Notes under the pieces: generated by a model
Databases searched by the model: none
What the model was told of the DNA's origin: nothing
What the model saw: the letters and a program-made list of their open reading frames with translations, nothing else
Translations under genes and position numbers: made by a program
Shown: in pieces, positions 30,312 through 46,974 of the stretch
Layout of the letters: every line of letters starts with the position of its first letter
Position numbering within the stretch: position 1 is the first letter of the stretch
DNA from: Clostridiales bacterium
GTDB lineage: Bacteria > Bacillota > Clostridia > Saccharofermentanales > Saccharofermentanaceae
Reading direction: 5' to 3'
Length of the DNA: 64,000 bases
Assembly: GCA_017617525.1 (NCBI GenBank)
Contig: JAFZWA010000006.1
Span: 62,001-126,000 of the forward strand

Positions 30312-30364
30312 GATTTATATAGTTCATGGCGCATCTTATGCATGCAGCCGTCCGGGAGGAATCA

Positions 30365-33340
30365 ATGCTCAAATTAGTCCAGACTGAAAACGGCTTAGTA
30401 AGAGGTTTTCAGGGTAATAATACACGTATTTCCGTATTTAAGGGTATTCCGTTTGCCGCTCCGCCGGTTGGAGAAAACCGTTGGAAGGCACCGCAACCTT
30501 GTGAATCTTGGGAAGGCGTTCGCGAATGCGGTAAATTCATGCCGATCTCTGTTCAGGATCAACCCGGCGTAGGCACAGATATCTACTGCCGCGAATGGCA
30601 TGTCGATAAGGACATCGAGATCGACGAGGATTGCCTCTATCTCAACGTTTGGACACCGGCAAACAGTGAAAACGATAATCTTCCGGTATTTGTATGGTTC
30701 TTCGGTGGCGGATTCCAGTGGGGGTATCCTCGCGAGATGGAATTCAACGGCGAGAATATGGCAAAAAGAGGCATCATCGTCGTAAGTGTTAACTATCGTC
30801 TTGGCGCGCTCGGCTTCCTTTCTCACCCGGATCTGATAAAAGAATCTCCGGATGCTCCTGCAAACTTCGGTAATCTCGACCAGCAGGCAGGTATCAAGTG
30901 GGTCGTAAAGAATATCAAGAACTTCGGTGGTGACCCGAAGAACATCACGATCGCGGGCCAGTCCGCGGGTGGCGGATCAGTTCTCACCCACCTTACTTCT
31001 GAATCCAGTATCGGTCTTTACCAGAAGGCCATCATCTACTCAGGAATCATTGAAAGCCCGTATATCAAGGACCAGGTGATTTCTCCCAAGCCGATCGAAG
31101 AAACATCGAAGATTGGCGAAAAGTTCCTTGAATCTCTCGGAGTTAAAACGATCGAAGAAGCAAGAAATATCGATGCGTTTACGATCCGTTCCAAATATGC
31201 TGAATTCCGTGAAAAAGAGATGTTCTTCTTCACACCTTGTATCGACCATGTATACCTGAAAGACGAACCTTTCAAGCTTATGCTTGAAGGAAAGCAGGCC
31301 AATGTCCCGCTCATTGCAGGTAATACATTCGATGAATTCAAGAGCTTTATCTATGCAGATAATGAGGAAAGCTTCGAAGAGCAGGCAAACGATATCTTCG
31401 GTGATCGTGCTGCTCAGTTCCTTTCTTTCCCGGAAAGCCACATCGTTGAAGACGGCAATAAGTATGCAGGTCTTCGCGGTATCGAATGTTCTGTTAAGGC
31501 GGCTCTTGATAAGACAAAAGCACCTTGCTTCTACTACAGTTTTGAGGTAGATATTCCGGGTGAAGATGATCCGGGAACATTCCATTCCGTTGATCTTTGG
31601 TTCTTCTTCGAAACTCTGGCCGCATGCTGGAGACCGTTCGTCGGCCGTCATTACGACATCGCGAGAAGAATGACCAACTATATCACGAACTTCGTTAAGA
31701 GCGGCAATCCGAACGGCGAAGACATCACCGGCGAAGCAATGCCGAACTGGCTTGCTTATTCTGATGATTCCAGAAACGAGATGCATTTTACTTCTGACGG
31801 CTGTATCCCAAAGGTTCAGGATTCAGAATTCATCCAGTTCTTTATCGACTGGCTTACAGATAAAACACTGGGGAAAATCGATGTTTCTGAAAGGAAAAGC
31901 GCCAGCATCGCTGCCCTTGCCGCTCCTTCTAAAAAACAGGCGTTCAACCCGTATCTTCCGTCCTGGGAGTATATTCCGGATGGTGAGCCGTATGTATTCG
32001 GTGATCGTCTCTATATCTACGGATCGCACGATTACTACAACTGCTCGTTTTTCTGCCCGGGTGACTATGTTTCATGGTCTGCTCCTGTAAACGATCTCGG
32101 CAACTGGAAGTACGAAGGTGTTTCTTTCAAACGTACGGATGATCCGGACAATCAGGAGAATAAGGGCTGCCTGTACGCACCTGATATCACGATCGGACCT
32201 GACGGACAGTACTACCTCTTCTATGTTCTTGACAATCAGAGCGTGGTAGCCGTTGCCAAATGCGATAAGCCGCAGGGACCGTTCAAGTTCTATGGTCATG
32301 TACATTACGAAGACGGCACTCTTCTCGGTCTTAAAGAAGGCAATGAGCCTCAGTTTGATCCGGGTGTTATTACTGTCGGAGACACAACGTATCTTTATAC
32401 CGGTTTCTGCGGTCAGACCGACGCTTCCCGTCATGGTGCCATGGTCACCGTGATCGGACCGGATATGCTTACGATCAAAAAAGGACCGGAATTCATTATT
32501 CCGGGTACCATGTACTCTAAGGGAACCGAATATGAAGGACACGCTTTCTTTGAAGCTCCATCCATTCGTTTCAGAAACGGTATCTATTATTTCATCTATT
32601 CTTCTCAGGTCATGCACGAGCTCTGCTACGCGACTTCTAAAGACCCGGAAGGTCCGTTTAAGTACGGCGGAGTTATCGTCAGCAACTGCGATCTAGGAAT
32701 CGATTCCTATAAGAGCGCGGATAAGCCGACAGCTTACGGCGCTAACAATCACGGCAGTATCATTGAGATCAATGGTGAATGGTACATCTTCTATCACAGA
32801 CATACGAACAATACATGGTATTCCCGTCAGGGCTGCGCTGAGAAGATCGAGTTCTCTGAAGACGGCAGCATCAAGCAGGTCGAGATGACATCCTGCGGAT
32901 TAAACGGCGGACCTCTTAAGGATACCTGTGAATATCCTTCTTATATCGCCTGCAACATCTTCTCCGATAAAAAGGAAGAAGACCCGTATGTCGGTAAGCA
33001 CAAGGTCGCCAGAGTGATCCAGGATGGCCGTGACGGCGATCACGAGATCGGTTACATTTCTTCGATCAACGAAGGTACTACGATCGGATTTAAATACTTC
33101 GACGTGAAGGATGCTAAAGGACTCATCCTCCATGTCAGAGGATACGGAAACGGTACATTTGAAGTAAGAACAACCATTGACGGACCTGTTCTTGCGGAGA
33201 TCCCCGTTCGATTCATGACAGTCTGGGAGAAATATGAAGCATCCTTCTCTTCTCCTATTACAGATCCGAAAGCGTCACTATTCCTCACCTACAAGGGGGG
33301 CGGCGATGTACAGCTTAAGTCCTTTGCATTTACACACTAA
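30365..33340 (+). CDS. fusion of type-B carboxylesterase, GH43 glycosidase and CBM6-like domain
   Basis: The 991-residue protein has three parts. Residues 1-510 are a complete type-B carboxylesterase: nucleophile Ser200 in AGQSAGGGS, oxyanion WFFGGGFQWG, an acidic residue in NTFDEFKSF and His in TFHSVDLWFFF. Residues about 525-850 are a GH43 five-blade propeller: base Asp in YIPDGEPYVFGDRLYIYGSHD (about 536), YAPDITIGPDGQYYLFYV, and acid Glu in GHAFFEAPSIR (about 725). Residues about 872-991 look like CBM6 (ARVIQDGRDGD, FEVRTTIDGP, FLTYKGGGDVQLKSF). No signal peptide is seen, so it appears cytoplasmic. It probably removes both acyl and arabinosyl/xylosyl groups from imported oligomers. Start chosen at 30365 with GGGAGG. 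Confidence 0.9.
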   Translation: MLKLVQTENGLVRGFQGNNTRISVFKGIPFAAPPVGENRWKAPQPCESWEGVRECGKFMPISVQDQPGVGTDIYCREWHVDKDIEIDEDCLYLNVWTPANSENDNLPVFVWFFGGGFQWGYPREMEFNGENMAKRGIIVVSVNYRLGALGFLSHPDLIKESPDAPANFGNLDQQAGIKWVVKNIKNFGGDPKNITIAGQSAGGGSVLTHLTSESSIGLYQKAIIYSGIIESPYIKDQVISPKPIEETSKIGEKFLESLGVKTIEEARNIDAFTIRSKYAEFREKEMFFFTPCIDHVYLKDEPFKLMLEGKQANVPLIAGNTFDEFKSFIYADNEESFEEQANDIFGDRAAQFLSFPESHIVEDGNKYAGLRGIECSVKAALDKTKAPCFYYSFEVDIPGEDDPGTFHSVDLWFFFETLAACWRPFVGRHYDIARRMTNYITNFVKSGNPNGEDITGEAMPNWLAYSDDSRNEMHFTSDGCIPKVQDSEFIQFFIDWLTDKTLGKIDVSERKSASIAALAAPSKKQAFNPYLPSWEYIPDGEPYVFGDRLYIYGSHDYYNCSFFCPGDYVSWSAPVNDLGNWKYEGVSFKRTDDPDNQENKGCLYAPDITIGPDGQYYLFYVLDNQSVVAVAKCDKPQGPFKFYGHVHYEDGTLLGLKEGNEPQFDPGVITVGDTTYLYTGFCGQTDASRHGAMVTVIGPDMLTIKKGPEFIIPGTMYSKGTEYEGHAFFEAPSIRFRNGIYYFIYSSQVMHELCYATSKDPEGPFKYGGVIVSNCDLGIDSYKSADKPTAYGANNHGSIIEINGEWYIFYHRHTNNTWYSRQGCAEKIEFSEDGSIKQVEMTSCGLNGGPLKDTCEYPSYIACNIFSDKKEEDPYVGKHKVARVIQDGRDGDHEIGYISSINEGTTIGFKYFDVKDAKGLILHVRGYGNGTFEVRTTIDGPVLAEIPVRFMTVWEKYEASFSSPITDPKASLFLTYKGGGDVQLKSFAFTH

Positions 33341-37599: not shown

Positions 37600-38358
37600 T
37601 CAAAGTGGTGGAAGCGTATCCAGGATCGCCATCTTATCGTAGTTCTTTTCGAGCCGTTCACATAAATATCTGTGTGTGACCGAGCAAAGATCGTCGAGCA
37701 CGTATTTTTCCGCACGAAAAGCACTCAGCCTCTCCAGCGGAGCTTCTCTTATATACCTGAGAGCTTCCACACAGCCCAGAGATACAAATTGATAGTCCTT
37801 TGCTTTCTCGACACAGCGAATATTCGAACAATACAGTCTGCACTTACTGAAAGAAAACGCGCGAGTCGGCATTTCATCTGGTTTTCCGCAGTCGCATTCA
37901 TTCAGATCAAAAGCGAAACCAAGTGCGTCCATGACGCGCCATTCAAACGCGGCAACTATCTGACGGTATTTTTCCGGGTGCTTTGAAAGATCGTACAAAA
38001 CATAAAGCAACAACGGATAAAGAGCCTGCGCGGACTCAGGATCGATCGCGGTGTCTTTTACGACTTCAAGGATATGGGAAGCAGATGTTAAGCCTTCGAA
38101 GGAATCATAAAGGCCACGGAAACTCTCGACCGTCTCCCCTTCCTTTAAGTAATAGAAACTTTTACTTTCGGATAAGACCATGTCGGCAAGAAGCGGCGGA
38201 GTCGCAAGTGAAGCGAGGCGCGAAGAATGCTTCTTGGCACCGGGAACCATCACAGAAACAAGTCCCCGTTTGGGAGTCAGGATAGTAATGATGGCGTCCT
38301 GATCACGATGCGGACGGGAAGCGATCACCACACCACGTATCGTAAAAGTCGCGCCCAT
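37600..38358 (-). CDS. recO: DNA repair protein RecO
   Basis: The 252-residue protein loads RecA with RecR. It has the OB-fold opening FTIRGVVIASRPHRDQDAIITILTPKRGL, a helical middle and a zinc-like cluster NECDCG ... CRLYCSNIRC. It follows the YbeY-Era gene by 3 nt, keeping the era-recO order found in many Firmicutes. Its stop directly abuts the stop of the convergent helicase gene (TGATCA), so no terminator fits between them. Confidence 0.92.
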   Translation of the reverse strand: MGATFTIRGVVIASRPHRDQDAIITILTPKRGLVSVMVPGAKKHSSRLASLATPPLLADMVLSESKSFYYLKEGETVESFRGLYDSFEGLTSASHILEVVKDTAIDPESAQALYPLLLYVLYDLSKHPEKYRQIVAAFEWRVMDALGFAFDLNECDCGKPDEMPTRAFSFSKCRLYCSNIRCVEKAKDYQFVSLGCVEALRYIREAPLERLSAFRAEKYVLDDLCSVTHRYLCERLEKNYDKMAILDTLPPL

Positions 38359-38361
38359 CTC

Positions 38362-39870
38362 TTAATCTTCCTTCTTCTTATAACCGAACTCGTCAAGGAA
38401 TACCTGACGATTCTTCCAATCCTTGCGTACTTTGATATGAAGATCCAAAAAGACCTTGCAATCCGTCATCTTCTCGATGTTTTCTCTGGCAGCCGTTCCG
38501 ATGCGTTTGATCATCTGGCCGTTCTTTCCGAGAAGGATGCTCTTATGAGAATCTCTTTCACAGATGATCGAAGCGTGGATCTTGATGAGGCTTCTGTCAT
38601 AGCTGTCTTCCGCGTCATCTTTCAGCACTTCTTCAAAAGCATCGATCTCGACAGCGGTTCCGTGCGGGATCTCTTCATTCGTGTAATGCAGGATCTGTTC
38701 ACGGATCAACTCGGCAGAGATCTCTCTTTCGGACTGATCGGTCACTTCCTCGATCGGGAAATATCTCGGCGCGCTCGGGAGCTTACTGATAATGACATCC
38801 ATAAGTTCATCAACGCCGTCATCTTTCAGAGCGGAGATCGGAACGATATCTACAAAATCAGCGATCTTCGAATAATTCGCGATAAGAGGCAGGAGCGATT
38901 CTTTCGTTACCGCGTCTGCTTTATTGACTGCAAGGATGATCGGCTTCTTCAGTTTTCTTGCCATCTCTGCGGCACGGATCTCTACATTTGCCGGCTTCGG
39001 GAATCTGCCGTCCGCCATGAGAACGACAACATCCGCCCCCTTTGCGGCTCTGAAAGAAGAATCTACCATGAACTCGGCAAGTTTGGACTGCGGTTTATGA
39101 ATACCGGGAGTATCTACAAAGATCACCTGGGCGTCATCTCTGTTATAGATCGCCTGGATGTTATTTCTTGTCGTCTGCGGCTTATGCGATGTGATCGCAA
39201 GCTTCATGCCGGAGATCGTATTAAGAAGTGTGGATTTACCGACATTCGGACGTCCTACGAGCGCGCAGTATCCGCAATGGGAAAGCATCTCACCGACCGG
39301 GTGATCGTCTTCAACGGATTCGATCATTTTGGAATCGTCATTCGAAGATCTCGGAAGTCCGATGCCTGTCATGATCTCTTCCTGCTTACTGAACATCAGA
39401 TCTTCATCTCTTCCGTTTTCATGGTCAAATCCAAGAAGATGCAAAAGTGAATGAACGGCCAGGAAAACCATCTCGCGGTCCATCGAATGTCCGTACTCTT
39501 CCGCCTGTTTTCTAGCTCTTTCCGGGCAGATCACGACATCGCCGATCGGAAGGAGTTTTTTGTCTTCGTCATAAGAGAAATCATAAGGCATGAGCTTGTT
39601 CTGGAGTTTTCCGTCAGTCATATCAAGGATCGGGAAAGAAAGGACATCCGTAACCTTATCTTTCTCCCTGTACTGCGCGTTCAGCTTTCTGATGGCATCG
39701 GATCCGACCAGACGGATATCCACACTGATCTCAGCGTCAGTATCTTTGATCGCCTTATCGATATAATCCATAGAAAGGATGAGCGAAAGTGCTTTTTCCA
39801 CATAGGAAACAAAAACTTCCGCTTCTTCTTTACTAAATGATCTTGTCTTGTTCTCTATCGAAATACTCAT
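38362..39870 (-). CDS. YbeY-Era fusion: rRNA-maturation endonuclease joined to ribosome-assembly GTPase
   Basis: The 502-residue protein contains two complete proteins in one frame. Residues 1-172 are YbeY: GDVVICPERA and the zinc triad His140, His144, His150 (HSLLHLLGFDH). After a linker (173-198), residues 199-502 are Era: G1 GRPNVGKS (206-213), SHKPQTTRNN, G3 DTPG (253-256), G4 NKAD (316-319) and a C-terminal KH domain with IICERDSHKSILLGKNG, then KVRKDW near the end. No frameshift or internal start is needed. Both act late in 16S rRNA 3'-end processing. The usual diacylglycerol kinase gene between them is absent. It overlaps pgpH by ATGA. Confidence 0.95.
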   Translation of the reverse strand: MSISIENKTRSFSKEEAEVFVSYVEKALSLILSMDYIDKAIKDTDAEISVDIRLVGSDAIRKLNAQYREKDKVTDVLSFPILDMTDGKLQNKLMPYDFSYDEDKKLLPIGDVVICPERARKQAEEYGHSMDREMVFLAVHSLLHLLGFDHENGRDEDLMFSKQEEIMTGIGLPRSSNDDSKMIESVEDDHPVGEMLSHCGYCALVGRPNVGKSTLLNTISGMKLAITSHKPQTTRNNIQAIYNRDDAQVIFVDTPGIHKPQSKLAEFMVDSSFRAAKGADVVVLMADGRFPKPANVEIRAAEMARKLKKPIILAVNKADAVTKESLLPLIANYSKIADFVDIVPISALKDDGVDELMDVIISKLPSAPRYFPIEEVTDQSEREISAELIREQILHYTNEEIPHGTAVEIDAFEEVLKDDAEDSYDRSLIKIHASIICERDSHKSILLGKNGQMIKRIGTAARENIEKMTDCKVFLDLHIKVRKDWKNRQVFLDEFGYKKKED

Positions 39871-41954
39871 TCCGGATATTTCACCCTTTCGTGGAAGTAG
39901 CCTGCGTATACCTGAATAAAGGCACCGATGATCAGTTCAAGATCGTCGAACGAGAGTCCGGAATGCACAAGCTGATCTTCCTCAATCTTTTGCTTTATGA
40001 TCTTTCTGAAAAGCGTCTCCGCTTCTTCGATATCATGGACACCGCGGGAACGGATCGCTGCCTCACAGGAGTCCGCGATCATGATGATCGCTGATTCACG
40101 AGTGGACGGAACGGATCCGCGATAAGAGAACTTCTCTCTCGGCGGTGCCGGTTCGCCCTTCTCCTGTGCTTCTTTCTGAGCTTTGTAATAGAAGTAACCC
40201 GGACATGTCGTACCGTGATGCTCCAAAATGATATTCTGGATCGGCGCCGGGAGCCTGTACTTCTTGGCGAGTTTCAAACCATCAGACGGGTGCGACGTAA
40301 TGATAGCGACGCTTTCTTCCATCGAGAGATTATCGTGCGGATTTACTCCGTCCTTCTGATTCTCGGTAAAGTATTCAGGTCTTTCGAGTTTGCCGATATC
40401 GTGGTAGTAAGAACCGACCTTTGCGAGAAGTGCGTTCGCGCCGATCGCTTCCGCCGCAGAATCGGCAAGGTTCGCAACCATCATGGAGTGCTGGGATGTA
40501 CCCGGAGCCTCAAGGAAAAGTCTCTTCTGAAGAGGATGACTCTGCTGCGCGAGGTCAAGGAGACGCATAGGAGATGCCGTATTCGAGATCAGCTCGAAAA
40601 GCGGCTGTGTACCGATCGCAGCGACGACAGAACATCCGGTACTGATGACAGACCACAAGGCAGAATTAAACGTGTCCGTCTTGGAGGACTGGCTTACAAG
40701 GTTATAGCCGAGCGAAGCGATGAGAGATGCAGCTGACGTATAGATGATCAGCGTCGCCGCGTTGAATTTGTGATTTCTCTGACCTGCTATCGCCGCGCAT
40801 ACGAAAATACTGATGATCGAAACAAACATGAGTTCCGTATTGAATCCGCTCATCGGAAGGACCATGAGCAGCGAAAGGATACTCATCACGACGCCGCCCT
40901 GCATACCAAGGTATATGGAGAAAATATACGAGGTAAACATGATCGTCGAGAAAAGAGGTGAGATCTGTGTCAGATAACGGCTCGAGATCAACGGAATAAC
41001 AAACGCGAGCATCAAAGATATCCAAGTCTTGGAGTCGATCGGATACTCATTTTTGATCTTACTCAGATAGAAAGCGCCGGCAGAAACGATAATGCAGATA
41101 TAAACGACGATACCGATCAGTAGTATGTAGTTAAATGAATCTGTCGGCAAAAGATCCAGATCTTCCAGCTGGCTGTAAACATGAGGAGTGATCGTCTCAC
41201 CGACACTTACGATACGAGTGCCCTTCTGGATCATGACCGGATCCGCGACAGCGTTCTTATACGCCGCGACTCTTTCGTTCTCCGTTGCTTTTTCATCATA
41301 AACCGCATTCGGCTTCAAAAGACTTCTGAGCGTTCTGACAAGAAGATCTTTTGATGAGATATATTCCGAATCGTCATGTGTCTTTGTCTCTTCGACAGAG
41401 GAAGCATAGTTATTGATCTCCTGCAAAAGCGCCTGTTCATCAAGCGCGTCCATGCTGATCATCGCGGCGATCTGATTTGCTTCGAGTTCGACATATGCGT
41501 AATCCACAAAGGAAATATTCGCGAGCGTATAGGAGACATCATCCGGCAGCTCGATATCGTAAGATTCTTTAACTGCCTTCTTCAAAAGCGTAGCCATCTC
41601 GGACTTGTTTCGGATGACCATTCCCAATTCGTCAATATTCGCCTTACGGAGTTCTTCACAGTAATTAAAGAAATCCGCGACAAGCTGCATATTCTCATTG
41701 GAGATCTCTTCGGAAATGACATAGATAGGAGCAACTTCAGTTTTTGCCAGGACAGCACGGCGCTCAGTCTCATACGAATCCTTAACGGTCCTTGTCGCCG
41801 TGATATCGTATTCAGAAGTCTGTCCCTGACGGACATCATACTGTTTCGGAAGAGAACCAAAATACACGACCAAGACCATCAGTACGGCAAGTACTGCAAT
41901 GGACGCGATACGAATCACTTGGAAAAGCTTCTGGTTCTTCTTCGAATTACGCAT
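39867..41954 (-). CDS. 7TM-HD family phosphohydrolase, PgpH/YqfF-like
   Basis: The 695-residue membrane protein has one N-terminal helix (about 15-35), a large outer domain (7TMR-HDED, 40-300), about seven helices (300-480) and a cytoplasmic HD domain with HSMMVANLADSA, SYYHDIGKLERPEYF, EHHGT and IADSCEAAIRS. PgpH of Listeria and its relatives hydrolyse c-di-AMP, the likely role here. The start at 41954 is preferred (GAGGAG upstream, 8-nt overlap with phoH); an ATG at 41981 has no site. The 3' end overlaps the YbeY-Era gene. Confidence 0.9.
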   Translation of the reverse strand: MRNSKKNQKLFQVIRIASIAVLAVLMVLVVYFGSLPKQYDVRQGQTSEYDITATRTVKDSYETERRAVLAKTEVAPIYVISEEISNENMQLVADFFNYCEELRKANIDELGMVIRNKSEMATLLKKAVKESYDIELPDDVSYTLANISFVDYAYVELEANQIAAMISMDALDEQALLQEINNYASSVEETKTHDDSEYISSKDLLVRTLRSLLKPNAVYDEKATENERVAAYKNAVADPVMIQKGTRIVSVGETITPHVYSQLEDLDLLPTDSFNYILLIGIVVYICIIVSAGAFYLSKIKNEYPIDSKTWISLMLAFVIPLISSRYLTQISPLFSTIMFTSYIFSIYLGMQGGVVMSILSLLMVLPMSGFNTELMFVSIISIFVCAAIAGQRNHKFNAATLIIYTSAASLIASLGYNLVSQSSKTDTFNSALWSVISTGCSVVAAIGTQPLFELISNTASPMRLLDLAQQSHPLQKRLFLEAPGTSQHSMMVANLADSAAEAIGANALLAKVGSYYHDIGKLERPEYFTENQKDGVNPHDNLSMEESVAIITSHPSDGLKLAKKYRLPAPIQNIILEHHGTTCPGYFYYKAQKEAQEKGEPAPPREKFSYRGSVPSTRESAIIMIADSCEAAIRSRGVHDIEEAETLFRKIIKQKIEEDQLVHSGLSFDDLELIIGAFIQVYAGYFHERVKYPE

Positions 41955-42933
41955 GTCCCCCGTGTCTCCTCTCTCTTGCATTATAAGCCATTATTATCTT
42001 TTGTACCAACGGGTTTCTGACAATATCCGTCTCCTGAAGCGATACGATCGAAATTCCGGGAATATCACGAAGGATATGCATAGCGTCATCAAGTCCGTTC
42101 GGATAACCGGATGGAAGATCGATCTGCGTTGTATCACCGCAAACACAGACACGGGAATTCATGCCCATACGTGTAAGGAACATCATCATCTGCTCGATCG
42201 TGGTATTCTGCGCTTCATCAAGAAGGATAAAGCTGTCGTCGAGGTTTCTTCCGCGCATGTAAGCGAGCGGAGATACTTCGATAATGCCGCGTTCGAGATT
42301 TCTTTCAAATGCTTCTCTTCCCATCAGTTCGAGAAGCGCATCATAGATCGGTCTCATGTAAGGATCGACCTTTTCTTCAATATCGCCCGGAAGATAACCG
42401 AGCTTTTCACCTGCTTCAACCGCAGGGCGAGTCAGAATGATCCTTGAGACAGATCGATCACGAAGGGCGAGTACAGCCATAGCGACACCGAGGAAAGTCT
42501 TACCGGATCCCGCGGGTCCTTTACAGATAACGACTTCATTCTTCGCCATGGAATCTACATAGACTCTCTGACCGAGTGTTTTCGCGCGAACGGAACGTCC
42601 GGCCGGTGTGGTAAGGATGATCGGATCTTCATCTTCCATAAACTCTTCGAGCAGGCCTTCCTTTTCGAGCTGGCAGAGATACTTTACAGTCAGGATATCC
42701 AGTTGTTCTTTCTTTCCGACGATCTTGTCCATACAAGAAAGAACCGCTTCTGCCTTCGGAAGAACACCGGTCTCACCACGAACGGAGATACCGCTGTCCA
42801 GCGCGACGACTTCACAGTCGAAAGAATCGGCAACAGCTTTCAACCAGGCACAGTTATTGGAAGAAAGTTCAACAAGATGATTCACTCTTAAAACAGTCTC
42901 TTCGATCAAATCCATCTCTCCTTTAAACGTCAT
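41947..42933 (-). CDS. PhoH-like ATPase (YbeZ type)
   Basis: The 328-residue protein has an N-terminal RNA-binding-like region, Walker A GPAGSGKT (about residue 140), TRPAVEAGEKLGYLPGD, MRGRNLDDSFILLDEAQNT (Walker B) and VCGDTTQIDLP. PhoH/YbeZ proteins work with YbeY in RNA processing, and their genes are usually close, as here. Two starts are possible: ATG 42933 overlaps rluD by 11 nt, and ATG 42915 follows GGAG by only 2-3 nt. The first is kept. Confidence 0.92.
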   Translation of the reverse strand: MTFKGEMDLIEETVLRVNHLVELSSNNCAWLKAVADSFDCEVVALDSGISVRGETGVLPKAEAVLSCMDKIVGKKEQLDILTVKYLCQLEKEGLLEEFMEDEDPIILTTPAGRSVRAKTLGQRVYVDSMAKNEVVICKGPAGSGKTFLGVAMAVLALRDRSVSRIILTRPAVEAGEKLGYLPGDIEEKVDPYMRPIYDALLELMGREAFERNLERGIIEVSPLAYMRGRNLDDSFILLDEAQNTTIEQMMMFLTRMGMNSRVCVCGDTTQIDLPSGYPNGLDDAMHILRDIPGISIVSLQETDIVRNPLVQKIIMAYNARERRHGGHA

Positions 42934-43831
42934 TTCTCAGTGTTTCGAGAAGCTTCTTATAATGCTCCGGGATGTCCGCGGTAAATTCAATGACCTCTTC
43001 CGTGCGAGGATGAATAAAACGAATGGATGTACTGTGAAGCGCCTGGCCGTGAAGATTGTACTTTTCTCTTTTCGGCGCGTAGAGCGGATCACCGATACAC
43101 GGATGACCGATATACGTCATGTGCGCGCGGATCTGATGTGTTCTACCTGTTTCCAGTCGGCAAAGAAGATCCGTTCCTTTTCTGAAACGCTCAAGCACTT
43201 CAAAGTGAGTGATCGAATCCTTTCCACCCTCACAAACTGTCATCTTTCTTCTGTCATTCGTAGCGCGTCCGATCGGCGCGTGGATCGTTCCTTTATCGGA
43301 ATCTACGATACCGTAAACGCAGGCGCGATACTCTCTCACTACTTCGTGATTCGCGATCATCTCGGCCATAGCAAGATGCGTCTCATTATTCTTAACGACG
43401 ACCATCAGACCGGAAGTGTCCATATCGATTCGGTGAACGATACCCGGACGAATGACGCCATTGATATCGGAAAGCTTTCCCGCGCAATGATAAAGAAGCG
43501 CGTTAACAAGCGTACCGGAATAATGTCCGGGAGCAGGATGGACGACCATGCCCTGGGGTTTATTGATAACGATCAGATCATCATCTTCAAAAACGATATC
43601 CAGCGGGATATTCTCCGGCTTTGCGTCAGTGTCCACCGGCGGCGGAAAATCGATATCGATCTTCTCTCCGCCGAAAACCTTAAACGAAGCTTTTACAGGC
43701 TTACCGTCGACGCATACGGCGCCATCCGAGATCAGCTGCGCAGCACGCGAGCGGGTCAGATCCGGACAGACCTGCGGAATATAGGCATCAACACGACCCT
43801 GATAGTTTTCAACGATGTAGGACTCGATCAT
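42923..43831 (-). CDS. RluD-family 23S rRNA pseudouridine synthase
   Basis: The 302-residue enzyme has an S4 RNA-binding domain (TRSRAAQLISDGAVCVDGKPV, residues 26-46) and the RluA/RluD catalytic core with HRIDMDTSG (catalytic Asp), INKPQGMVVHPAPGH and ETGRTHQIRAHM. It isomerises uridine in 23S rRNA; which positions cannot be told from the sequence. It is 3 nt downstream of lspA, the common lspA-rluD order of Firmicutes. Confidence 0.94.
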   Translation of the reverse strand: MIESYIVENYQGRVDAYIPQVCPDLTRSRAAQLISDGAVCVDGKPVKASFKVFGGEKIDIDFPPPVDTDAKPENIPLDIVFEDDDLIVINKPQGMVVHPAPGHYSGTLVNALLYHCAGKLSDINGVIRPGIVHRIDMDTSGLMVVVKNNETHLAMAEMIANHEVVREYRACVYGIVDSDKGTIHAPIGRATNDRRKMTVCEGGKDSITHFEVLERFRKGTDLLCRLETGRTHQIRAHMTYIGHPCIGDPLYAPKREKYNLHGQALHSTSIRFIHPRTEEVIEFTADIPEHYKKLLETLRNDV

Positions 43832-43834
43832 GCG

Positions 43835-44440
43835 TTACTCCTCGTCAGCTTCGTCTTCGTCTTCTTTTCCCGAAAAGTCGATAAGACCGCTTTCCTTCTG
43901 TGGTTCTTCCTTCGGCGGATTAAACGGGATCTCCGGAATGAATTTCTCATTAAAAAGCAAGAATACCGCGAGCGCGATGCAGGAAAGTGTTACATAAATA
44001 TCCGCGACATTGAAGATCGGAAACGTATAGCTTCCGAAATCAAAGCAGATAAAATCAACGACATACTTCAAACGGACTCTGTCGATCAGATTGCCGAGAG
44101 TTCCTGCGGACAGGAAGATCAGACACAAAGAAAGCTTTCTGCTTCTGAAACGTGCAAGCACAAAGAACGCAAGAACGATCAAGAGTATAAAAGCGATCGA
44201 AGAGATCACGGAAAGGAATGTGATCCCCCATGTTTTATCCGAGAACATGCTGAAAGCACTACCCGTGTTTCTTACATACATGAAGGAAAAGAACCCGTCG
44301 ATAATAGGGTCTTTCTGCGCAAGCGCAAATGATTTAACGATCAGATCCTTTGTGAACTGGTCGATAAAAACGAGAACAACAAAAAGTTCCGAGAAAAGAA
44401 CGTATGTCATCCAGGTCGGTTTTCTGAGTTCATTATTCAT
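43835..44440 (-). CDS. lspA: lipoprotein signal peptidase
   Basis: The 201-residue four-helix membrane protease removes signal peptides from acylated prolipoproteins, such as the two binding lipoproteins in this window. The catalytic aspartates are Asp120 (GNLIDR) and Asp147 (FNVADI); VRNTGSAFSMF is also typical. It is longer than most LspA proteins (about 160) because of a C-terminal tail of about 40 residues that is strongly acidic (KEDEDEADEE). It overlaps ymdB by 8 nt. Confidence 0.94.
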   Translation of the reverse strand: MNNELRKPTWMTYVLFSELFVVLVFIDQFTKDLIVKSFALAQKDPIIDGFFSFMYVRNTGSAFSMFSDKTWGITFLSVISSIAFILLIVLAFFVLARFRSRKLSLCLIFLSAGTLGNLIDRVRLKYVVDFICFDFGSYTFPIFNVADIYVTLSCIALAVFLLFNEKFIPEIPFNPPKEEPQKESGLIDFSGKEDEDEADEE

Positions 44441-45221
44441 TCAATTTGATCCTTTCTATTTTCAGGCATTTACCGGTCTTCTCATCCAGATCCGCAAGAA
44501 CAGCCTGAATGGTGGCCGATCCTTCTGCCGGCTGATATCTGGCCGGAAGCTTATCGGCAAGACGACGCAGTGAAGCGTCCGCGTCCATACCGAGGATTCC
44601 TTCTTCCGTGCCAGTCATTCCGACATCAGTGATATATCCCGTTCCACAAGGGAGTATCTTTTCATCAGAGGTCTGTACATGCGTATGTGTACCGAGTACC
44701 AAAGAGACTTTGCCGTCACAGAAGTAACCCATGGCGCCCTTTTCGCTCGTTGTTTCCGCATGAAAATCTATAAGAATGTTCGTAGGAGCATACTCCTTCT
44801 TCCATCTCTCGATATTATTCTGAAAATACTTAAACGGAGAATCCGCCAAGGGAGTGACGAATACCTGACCCATCAGGGAAATAACGAGAAGTCTGCCCTT
44901 GTCTTTCAGATCGACAAGGTACTCACAAGTTCCCGGCCATGAATCACTGACATTTCCCGGACGGATAACACGAGGTTCGGATTCCGCGAATTGAAGATAA
45001 CTCGGACAGGAAAAAGAATGGTTTCCAAGAGTGATACAGTCAGCGCCGAATGAAAAGATCTCTTTTGCCGAAGCGTAATTGATACCGAGTCCAGCGGCTA
45101 CATTCTCCGCATTTACGATACAGGCATCTACGGCATTTTCAGATAAAAATGCCTTCAGTTTGTTCTTTAATATGCGCTTTCCCGGATGGGCGACGACATC
45201 ACCTACAAAAAGGACCCGCAA
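44433..45221 (-). CDS. YmdB-family metallophosphoesterase
   Basis: The 262-residue enzyme matches the YmdB/TIGR00282 family: FVGDVVAHPGKRILKNKL, NAENVAAGLGI, LGNHSFSC, IDFHAETTSEKGAMGYF and LGTHTHVQTSDEKI, with metal-binding Asp/Asn/His residues. Bacillus YmdB hydrolyses 2',3'-cAMP and shapes development. The start is TTG at 45221 with GAGG 8 nt upstream. It follows rny, as in Bacillus, but with a terminator between them. Confidence 0.93.
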   Translation of the reverse strand: MRVLFVGDVVAHPGKRILKNKLKAFLSENAVDACIVNAENVAAGLGINYASAKEIFSFGADCITLGNHSFSCPSYLQFAESEPRVIRPGNVSDSWPGTCEYLVDLKDKGRLLVISLMGQVFVTPLADSPFKYFQNNIERWKKEYAPTNILIDFHAETTSEKGAMGYFCDGKVSLVLGTHTHVQTSDEKILPCGTGYITDVGMTGTEEGILGMDADASLRRLADKLPARYQPAEGSATIQAVLADLDEKTGKCLKIERIKLNE

Positions 45222-45289
45222 TTCTTATTCCTCAATTCTAAAAATATACTCTGTATTTTACCATAAACGCAGCGTTTTCGGGAACAAAA

Positions 45290-45322
45290 AAAGAGCCCGT
45301 CCCATATAAGGACAGGCTCTTT
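45290..45322 (-). terminator. intrinsic terminator of rny
   Basis: A 12-bp stem with one mismatch (arms 45290-45302 and 45310-45322) and a 7-nt loop, followed on the minus strand by a long U run. It begins 11 nt after the rny stop. Confidence 0.85.
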
Positions 45323-45333
45323 CTGTTTCGGGT

Positions 45334-46908
45334 TTACTTTGCTACATCCGAGGCACGTGTTTCACGAATGATATTGACCTTGATCTGACCCGGATAATCG
45401 AGTTCTTCCTCGATTCTCTTACAGATATCACGGGCTCTCAGGATCATTTCATCATCAGACACCTTGTCCGGGCTGACGATTACGCGGATCTCACGACCTG
45501 CCTGGATCGCAAAGGCTTTCTCGACACCATCAAAACTGGTAGCGATTTCTTCAAGCTTCTGAATTCTCTTGATATAAGTTTCCATGTTCTCACGACGTGC
45601 GCCCGGTCTTGCTGCGGAAATAGCATCCGCTGCGGCAACCAGTACTGCGATCTCAGTTGTCGGTTCGCAGTCACCGTGGTGGGACATGATCGCGTTGATT
45701 ACTGTGTCATTTTCTTTATAACGACGTGCAATGTCAGCGCCTAACTCAATATGAGAACCCTCAAGTTCAAAGTCAGCAGCCTTTCCGATATCATGCAACA
45801 AGCCTGCTCTACGAGCAAGCATCTCATCCAGACCTAATTCCGCCGCCATCATGCTGGCAAGCCAGGCGACTTCAATTGAATGCTGCAACACATTCTGCCC
45901 GTAACTTGTACGATAACGTAAACGTCCGAGATACTTGATGATCTCCGGATTCAGACCGACGATTCCTGTATCAAAAGCAGCTCTTTCACCTTCCTGCTTG
46001 ATCGTCTGGTTGACTTCTTTACGGGCTTTGTGAGACATCTCTTCGATTCTCGCAGGATGGATACGGCCATCCAAAATCAATCTTTCAATTGTCAATCGGG
46101 CGATCTCACGCCGGATTGGGTCAAAACTCGAAAGGATAACGGCCTCAGGTGTATCGTCGATAATAATGTCAACACCGGTGCTTGTCTCGATCGCACGGAT
46201 GTTTCTACCTTCACGGCCGATGATACGTCCCTTCATTTCATCATTCGGCAGGGACACAACCGAAACGGTCACTTCGGACACATAGTCTGAAGCATAACGC
46301 TGGATCGCATTCACGACGATCTCACGCGATTTCTTGTCGGCTTCAGCTTTCGCCTGTTCTTCCATCTGCTTGAGCATTACGGCCATATCGTGGCTGTATT
46401 CACGCTGAGCAGCGTCAAGAACAAGATTTCGAGCATCACTTACAGATAAACCGGATACTTTCTCAAGCTCGATCACTTTCTGACGTTCCAGTTCCTTTGC
46501 TTTCTCCTCCAATGCCATAACATCGCTGACACGGGTTTCAAGAGCAGATTCCTTCTGTTCCATCGCTTCGATCTTGCGGTTTAATGATTCCTCTTTCTGC
46601 TCAAGACGGTTCCTCTCTCTGGCGATCTCGGACTTTCTCTCTCTAACGTCCTTCTCAAGATCGAGTTTCGCGTTAGTTATTTCCTCCTTCGCCTGTAAAA
46701 GAAGTTCCCTCTTTCTGCTTTCTGCATTCTTCTGCGCCTCACCAATTACTCTTTCTGCATCTTCTTCTGCTTTAGCCACATCCTCTTCAAGCTTCTTCTG
46801 CTTAGCGGAAAGGCCTTTGCGGTAATATAATACGGAAAATCCTACACTGATGAGAGCACCGACTACGAAAGCAATTACAATCAATAGAATTGCTAACCAA
46901 AGTTCTAT
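45334..46908 (-). CDS. rny: ribonuclease Y
   Basis: The membrane-anchored endoribonuclease starts mRNA decay. From 46908 it has 524 residues: an N-terminal helix, a long coiled coil (about 30-200, Lys/Glu/Arg-rich), a KH domain with [18 protein letters not shown], and an HD domain with [12 protein letters not shown] and [12 protein letters not shown]. The only ribosome site is a perfect GGAGGTGA (46921-46914), 5 nt before ATA at 46908. No ATG is near; an in-frame TTG (46923) and GTG (46917) lie inside the site itself. Initiation at AUA is therefore the best reading, though unusual. Confidence 0.93.
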
Positions 46909-46974
46909 GGTACTCACCTCCAATATTTAATTTTCAAGATTCAAATCATATGTCCCTCTTAAGAACACCATATA

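Follow-up and report, generated by a model that had tools for sequence, protein, structure and literature searches.

YbeY and Era encoded as one frame, retained across a family of Clostridia and probably joined more than once

Within the 64,000-nucleotide stretch of DNA analysed here (hereafter the window), one open frame encodes both YbeY and Era in full, and comparison with related genomes indicates that this joining has been kept in the window's family and has probably taken place several times over. We favour, with fair confidence and on the evidence of sequence comparison, the interpretation that the product is one bifunctional 30S-assembly factor, in which the tether would make a weak YbeY-Era contact permanent, at a 1:1 ratio, during maturation of the platform and the 3' end. 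The architecture itself is known; what is new here is its retention in a family, the repeated joining, the motif at the junction and the distribution of the fusion.

The fused ybeY-era gene occupies 38362..39870, the coordinates given in a preliminary description of this DNA, and both ORF reading and profile matches identify it as a single uninterrupted frame of 502 aa plus stop that carries YbeY and Era. Its strand, which that description had not given, is minus, and the plus strand of 38362-39870 is interrupted by stops. The YbeY endoribonuclease domain comprises residues 37-168 (39367..39762, minus strand; PF02130, E 7.9e-40, 136.2 bits vs a Pfam cut-off of 25), and the NCBIfam model TIGR00043 (YbeY) matches residues 39-173 with 136.7 bits vs a cut-off of 45. 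On the Era side, the GTPase domain comprises residues 202-317 (38920..39267, minus strand; PF01926, MMR_HSR1, E 1.9e-26) and includes the P-loop (39232-39255, minus strand), and the KH domain comprises residues 400-485 (38416..38673, minus strand; PF07650, KH_2, E 1e-17, 64.1 bits). The NCBIfam model NF000908 (GTPase Era, NF000908/TIGR00436) matches residues 198-497 over its full length (profile positions 2-291 of 291), with 353.7 bits vs a cut-off of 237. Consistent with the early claim that the catalytic parts of both proteins are all intact, these profile matches are full and the key residues are invariant in an alignment of 19 fusions: H140, H144 and H150 of the segment HSLLHLLGFDH (39421..39453, minus strand), which we take to be the zinc site; G206, G211, K212 and S213, presumably the P-loop; and G448 and G451, presumably the GxxG of the KH domain. 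The linker had been put at about 25 residues, and 24 (174-197) separate the TIGR00043 and NF000908 matches. Because two full-length domains are present, and because the frame is kept across a linker of variable length in 20 genus genomes (the window's own counted), the frame is far beyond chance.

The fused gene sits tightly among its neighbours, its ATG overlapping the stop of the upstream HD gene by 4 bases (39867-39870, as ATGA) and recO (37600..38358, minus strand; RecO_N and RecO_C) starting 3 bases past its stop. The upstream gene (39867..41981, minus strand), with the Pfam domains 7TMR-HDED, 7TM-7TMR_HD and HD, is presumably PgpH-like, and it is preceded by a YbeZ-like phoH (41947..42933, minus strand; PF02562, E 8e-86). 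Together they belong to an RNA-centred cluster on the minus strand (37600-46923), which starts with the RNase Y gene (45334-46923, minus strand) and runs through YmdB, LspA (signal peptidase II), an RNA pseudouridine synthase, PhoH, the 7TM-HD protein and YbeY-Era to RecO. The genes dgkA and cdd, members of the S. aureus era operon, are absent between ybeY and era in the window. Among the other loci read, one (L052:2234-3937) has a 567-aa frame resembling PhoH, about 280 residues of which precede the PhoH match, and no HD gene was found in that locus. At a distance from the cluster, the plus strand of the window (30326-33340) encodes a protein of 1004 aa with a carboxylesterase domain (best stretch 17-355), a glycosyl hydrolase family 43 domain (562-848) and about 155 further residues, possibly a hemicellulose-degrading esterase-glycosidase.

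Stand-alone copies of either gene, which the preliminary description had suggested looking for, were sought throughout the genome (2.47 Mb, about 95% complete). The fusion is the sole PF02130 match, and the KH_2 search returned the fusion and one other gene, which reads as uS3 (RpsC), a name we assign from its sequence. With one YbeY match, and with uS3 as the other KH_2 gene, there is therefore no stand-alone ybeY or era in the assembled part of this genome, about 95% complete, and the fusion most likely replaces both stand-alone proteins. The 16S 3' end was sought in the window's assembly with a 22-base pattern allowing up to 2 mismatches, and no match was obtained.

Mapping of YbeY-Era fusions over 188 genomes of the order revealed an arrangement that is kept in the window's family and patchy beyond it. 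In 105 of the 110 family genomes with a YbeY match (115 searched, the window's own counted), the frame around YbeY is at least 490 aa; in three of the remaining five the gene meets a contig end (G007, G069, G089), and in two the frame is broken (G080, G035). These broken frames (loci L148 and L149) go beyond a mere contig end and represent either error or decay. The five family genomes lacking a YbeY match have completeness values of 64-88%, and their GTPase-domain matches are weak, as from other GTPases. Family f3 is fused in 11/11 genomes with a match, including G156, where two contig ends are involved and the YbeY piece continues into Era; G159 has no match. Family f2 is mixed. In genera g6 (5/5 with a match), g9 (3/3), g10 (5/5) and g11 (12/12), every matched frame is either fused or longer than YbeY by itself would account for; here G128, G137 and G144, with frames of 375-438 aa, are counted by frame length, and in f2 genome G140 a 264-aa frame holds YbeY and the start of Era. 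The f2 genera g7 (2/2), g8 (1/1) and g12 (7/7, with G149 and G150 assigned by frame length alone) are split. Of the 23 genomes in family f4, 12 are split on reading, 7 carry frames of 175-229 aa, the length of a stand-alone gene, G178 shows a fragment only, and G167, G174 and G180 have no match.

Fusions also occur outside the order: at least two in a class sample of 393 genomes, 373 of them from outside the order (G207 of family f24 and G198 of f15), and at least one among the 381 genomes from other classes in a phylum sample of 398 (G876 of f112), both counts being lower bounds, since they are drawn from the matches listed and a fusion that has diverged may appear there as two separate hits. 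Among the matches listed for public-contig loci of named genomes there were 0/80 fusions; a YbeY match is present in 42 of these 80 loci, lies within 100 nt of Era in 7, and none of the loci is close to the window's family. Long Era frames in G197, G317, G244, G663, G690, G737, G214, G923, G187, G896 and G862 were considered as candidates and rejected, each being an Era frame without YbeY. Locus L158 (G130) has an unusually long fusion of 621 aa, whose YbeY part contains KQSDKLA/KQADKQA-like repeats before the zinc-site segment.

A tree of PhoH, HDIG and RecO was built from 59 loci selected by hand, all of them retained and 15 of them lying outside the order; its well supported branches require the fused state to have changed five times or more. 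Placing all 28 fused order rows in one clade is rejected on this tree (AU p 3e-60), as is one clade for the nine f2 fusions (p 0.0007), whereas a single clade of f1 plus f3 (19 rows) cannot be rejected (p 0.24). The YbeY+Era tree discriminates less well, with six changes needed, three of them forced, and seven needed if G198 is taken as fused. Fused G876 lies outside the tree amid f112 members that are split (G760, G801, G690, G737), and thus should add one more change. Because 13 of the 15 out-of-order tree rows are split and no linker sequence is common to the clades, repeated fusion is favoured, with some of the changes perhaps being fissions, since a count of changes does not distinguish a gain from a loss. 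The two genes lie directly side by side in many unfused relatives, in several of them with a lone in-frame stop in between, and among the 54 genomes in which the pair is close but split the two genes share a frame in 27. The fusion probably arose on several occasions, by the disappearance of the boundary that had separated two abutting genes.

We also compared YbeY-Era with other neighbour pairs of the operon, using 238 loci chosen for their ybeY-era gene; in 139 of these YbeY and Era lie within 100 nt of each other or in one frame, and in 80 they are in one frame. Counted once per genome, the pair is joined in 66 of the 120 genomes where it is close. No other pair was found in one frame in these loci: Era-RecO in 0/107 genomes, HDIG-YbeY in 0/109, PhoH-HDIG in 0/66 and PhoH-YbeY in 0/44. 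The reading frames of these pairs agree in 31/107, 9/109, 14/66 and 10/44 genomes, respectively, and with so few in the same frame these pairs, HDIG-YbeY most of all, would be harder to join. The absence of other joined pairs thus lends support to, and falls short of proof for, a joining specific to YbeY and Era, in loci that were themselves chosen for this gene.

The junction was examined in 20 genomes of the window's genus, g1 (the window's own counted, of 22 with a match; G100 and G102 have no locus). The linker comprises approximately residues 176-197 (39280..39345, minus strand), with a variable start and a conserved end, HPVGEML. Its length ranges over 18-36 residues, always in whole codons and free of stops in 20/20 genomes. 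Counted from the Era side in ungapped positions, the first part is variable at almost all codon positions (n = 20), and in the last eight codons the third position varies in 8/8, the first in 5/8 and the second in 2/8 (n = 20). The HPVGE codons vary at third positions only in 19/20 genomes (L024 left out), a pattern that points to a translated, selected protein rather than a kept ribosome-binding site. As read from these codon patterns, selection on the junction as protein is shown. In most members of genus g5 that were compared, the place equivalent to HPVGEML looks like yPAGSpC, and no such segment was seen in members of g2, g3 and g4 (L187-L189). The HCGY that follows the linker is presumably the ordinary first strand of Era and for that reason was left out of the motif. 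A broader proposal can be built on these observations, which we advance tentatively and would rate somewhat short of an even chance: that joining has been convergent within the phylum (at least in f1 and/or f3; in f2 genus g9; in f2 genera g6/g10/g11; in f15; in f24; and in f112 of another class), that other operon neighbours have not been joined, and that the linker end in g1 and g5 is a conserved docking segment (HPVGEML / yPAGSpC) before the Era P-loop strand. If this proposal were true, YbeY and Era would act on the 30S subunit simultaneously and selection would favour a permanent complex.

Could the fusion be an artefact, or be made as two proteins? The broken frames of G080 and G035, 2 of 110 family genomes, indicate that such assemblies may contain errors, so a merging of two genes by sequencing or assembly is conceivable in principle; yet 105 of 110 family genomes share the architecture, as do members of f3, of four f2 genera and of lineages outside the order, and these relatives already refute the in-frame sequencing error that the preliminary description had named as its refutation, leaving it a vanishingly small probability. 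The alternative of two products, a separate Era from an internal start or a chain cleaved after translation, is improbable. An internal start near residue 195 had been proposed as a check, and one candidate does lie there: Met195, at the Era boundary (39286..39288, minus strand), is an ATG in the window, with GGTGAG, a weak ribosome-binding site, ahead of it. It is likewise ATG in 16/20 genus genomes (the window's own counted), and in g5 an ATG lies two codons beyond this place in L026 and eight codons before it in L022 and L029. Against a kept start, the codon is GTG in 1 of the 20 genus genomes and an Ile codon in 3, the bases upstream vary freely at third codon positions, and none of the 10 g5 members compared has Met at the equivalent place. 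Another ATG 13 codons before Met195 has a ribosome-binding site that is no better. Because the site at Met195 is weak and the Met is unconserved in both the genus and g5, two separate products are unlikely.

More serious is the possibility that joining was neutral, such that abutting, co-translated genes simply lost their boundary and gained a tether with no special role, each half working as before. The abutting genes of many unfused relatives are what this reading would predict, as are loci where a single stop separates ybeY and era in the same frame (between the local matches in L143, L207, L209, L210, L212, L215, L219-L223, L225-L227 and L229). Fused loci, moreover, have anywhere from 3 to 91 residues between the local matches, and 174 in L158, with no clade-shared sequence visible. 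What a neutral process explains less well is that no other operon pair is joined in the loci read, even in the 31 genomes with agreeing Era and RecO frames; that the fusion is retained in every family member with an uncut, unbroken gene; and that the linker end is conserved within g1, the window's genus, and alike in most g5 members compared. On balance we consider neutral joining unlikely, at a probability that is still appreciable, and prefer the interpretation of a single bifunctional assembly factor.

Era is known to bind the 16S 3' end and helix 45 through its KH domain. Under the bifunctional reading, a single chain consisting of YbeY, a short flexible linker and Era would be translated; the tether would hold YbeY beside Era, making a normally weak contact permanent and 1:1; with Era still on the particle, YbeY would help to install uS11 and to bring the platform and the 3' end to maturity; and the two would leave the particle together. 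Several published observations on separate proteins are relevant here. In an E. coli two-hybrid assay the YbeY-Era interaction was positive in 2/4 plasmid combinations (PMC5101352), the S. aureus interaction was weak (PMC6738653), and Era overexpression relieved a ybeY deletion (PMC10582724). Human YBEY is needed for incorporation of uS11m and meets ERAL1 in situ, yet ERAL1 did not co-precipitate (PMC7515705). A 2023 review of Era, in the sections bearing on this point, finds no direct part for Era in final 3' processing and argues that Era is gone beforehand, and it raises the possibility that YbeY and Era work together to install uS11 and close the platform (PMC10582724). If Era departs before final 3' processing, the two proteins would more probably share the platform and uS11 step than the final 3' cut, and the review's view speaks against cleavage of the 3' end by a tethered YbeY, except where release is delayed. 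The preliminary description had proposed that a covalent link fixes the ratio of the two proteins and brings the nuclease to the rRNA. A 1:1 ratio does follow by construction, if the chain is translated whole, and it is plausible that the link places the putative nuclease on the Era-bound rRNA end. A family whose intact genes are fused, beside unfused relatives with the same operon, offers natural pairs in which to ask whether YbeY has to work during the time that Era is bound; and convergent joining, if that is what occurred, would favour action at the same moment over models that assign YbeY and Era to separate stages.

YbeY-Era fusions of clostridial species are already in print (PMC6738653, 2019; PMC10582724, 2023), and in the open-licence literature no title or abstract opening naming a YbeY-Era fused protein was found. 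The window protein is the same in having an N-terminal YbeY (the order stated in PMC10582724) and a C-terminal Era GTPase plus KH in one chain, and nothing in the portions of these two papers that describe the fusions (PMC6738653; PMC10582724) sets it apart in any essential way. Judged by its sequence, the window gene thus has the published YbeY-Era architecture: one frame, that domain order and no stand-alone copies. The S. aureus operon (ybeZ, ybeY, dgkA, cdd, era, recO; PMC6738653) shares with the window its phoH/ybeZ and recO neighbours and its domains, but has dgkA and cdd between ybeY and era, whereas the window has neither these genes nor a gene boundary in that place. Other Era fusions (RNase III-Era, CS/SGS and DUF916; PMC10582724) likewise carry an extra domain, with a partner and lineage that differ from those of the window, and among them RNase III-Era resembles the window protein in that a ribonuclease is joined to Era (PMC10582724).
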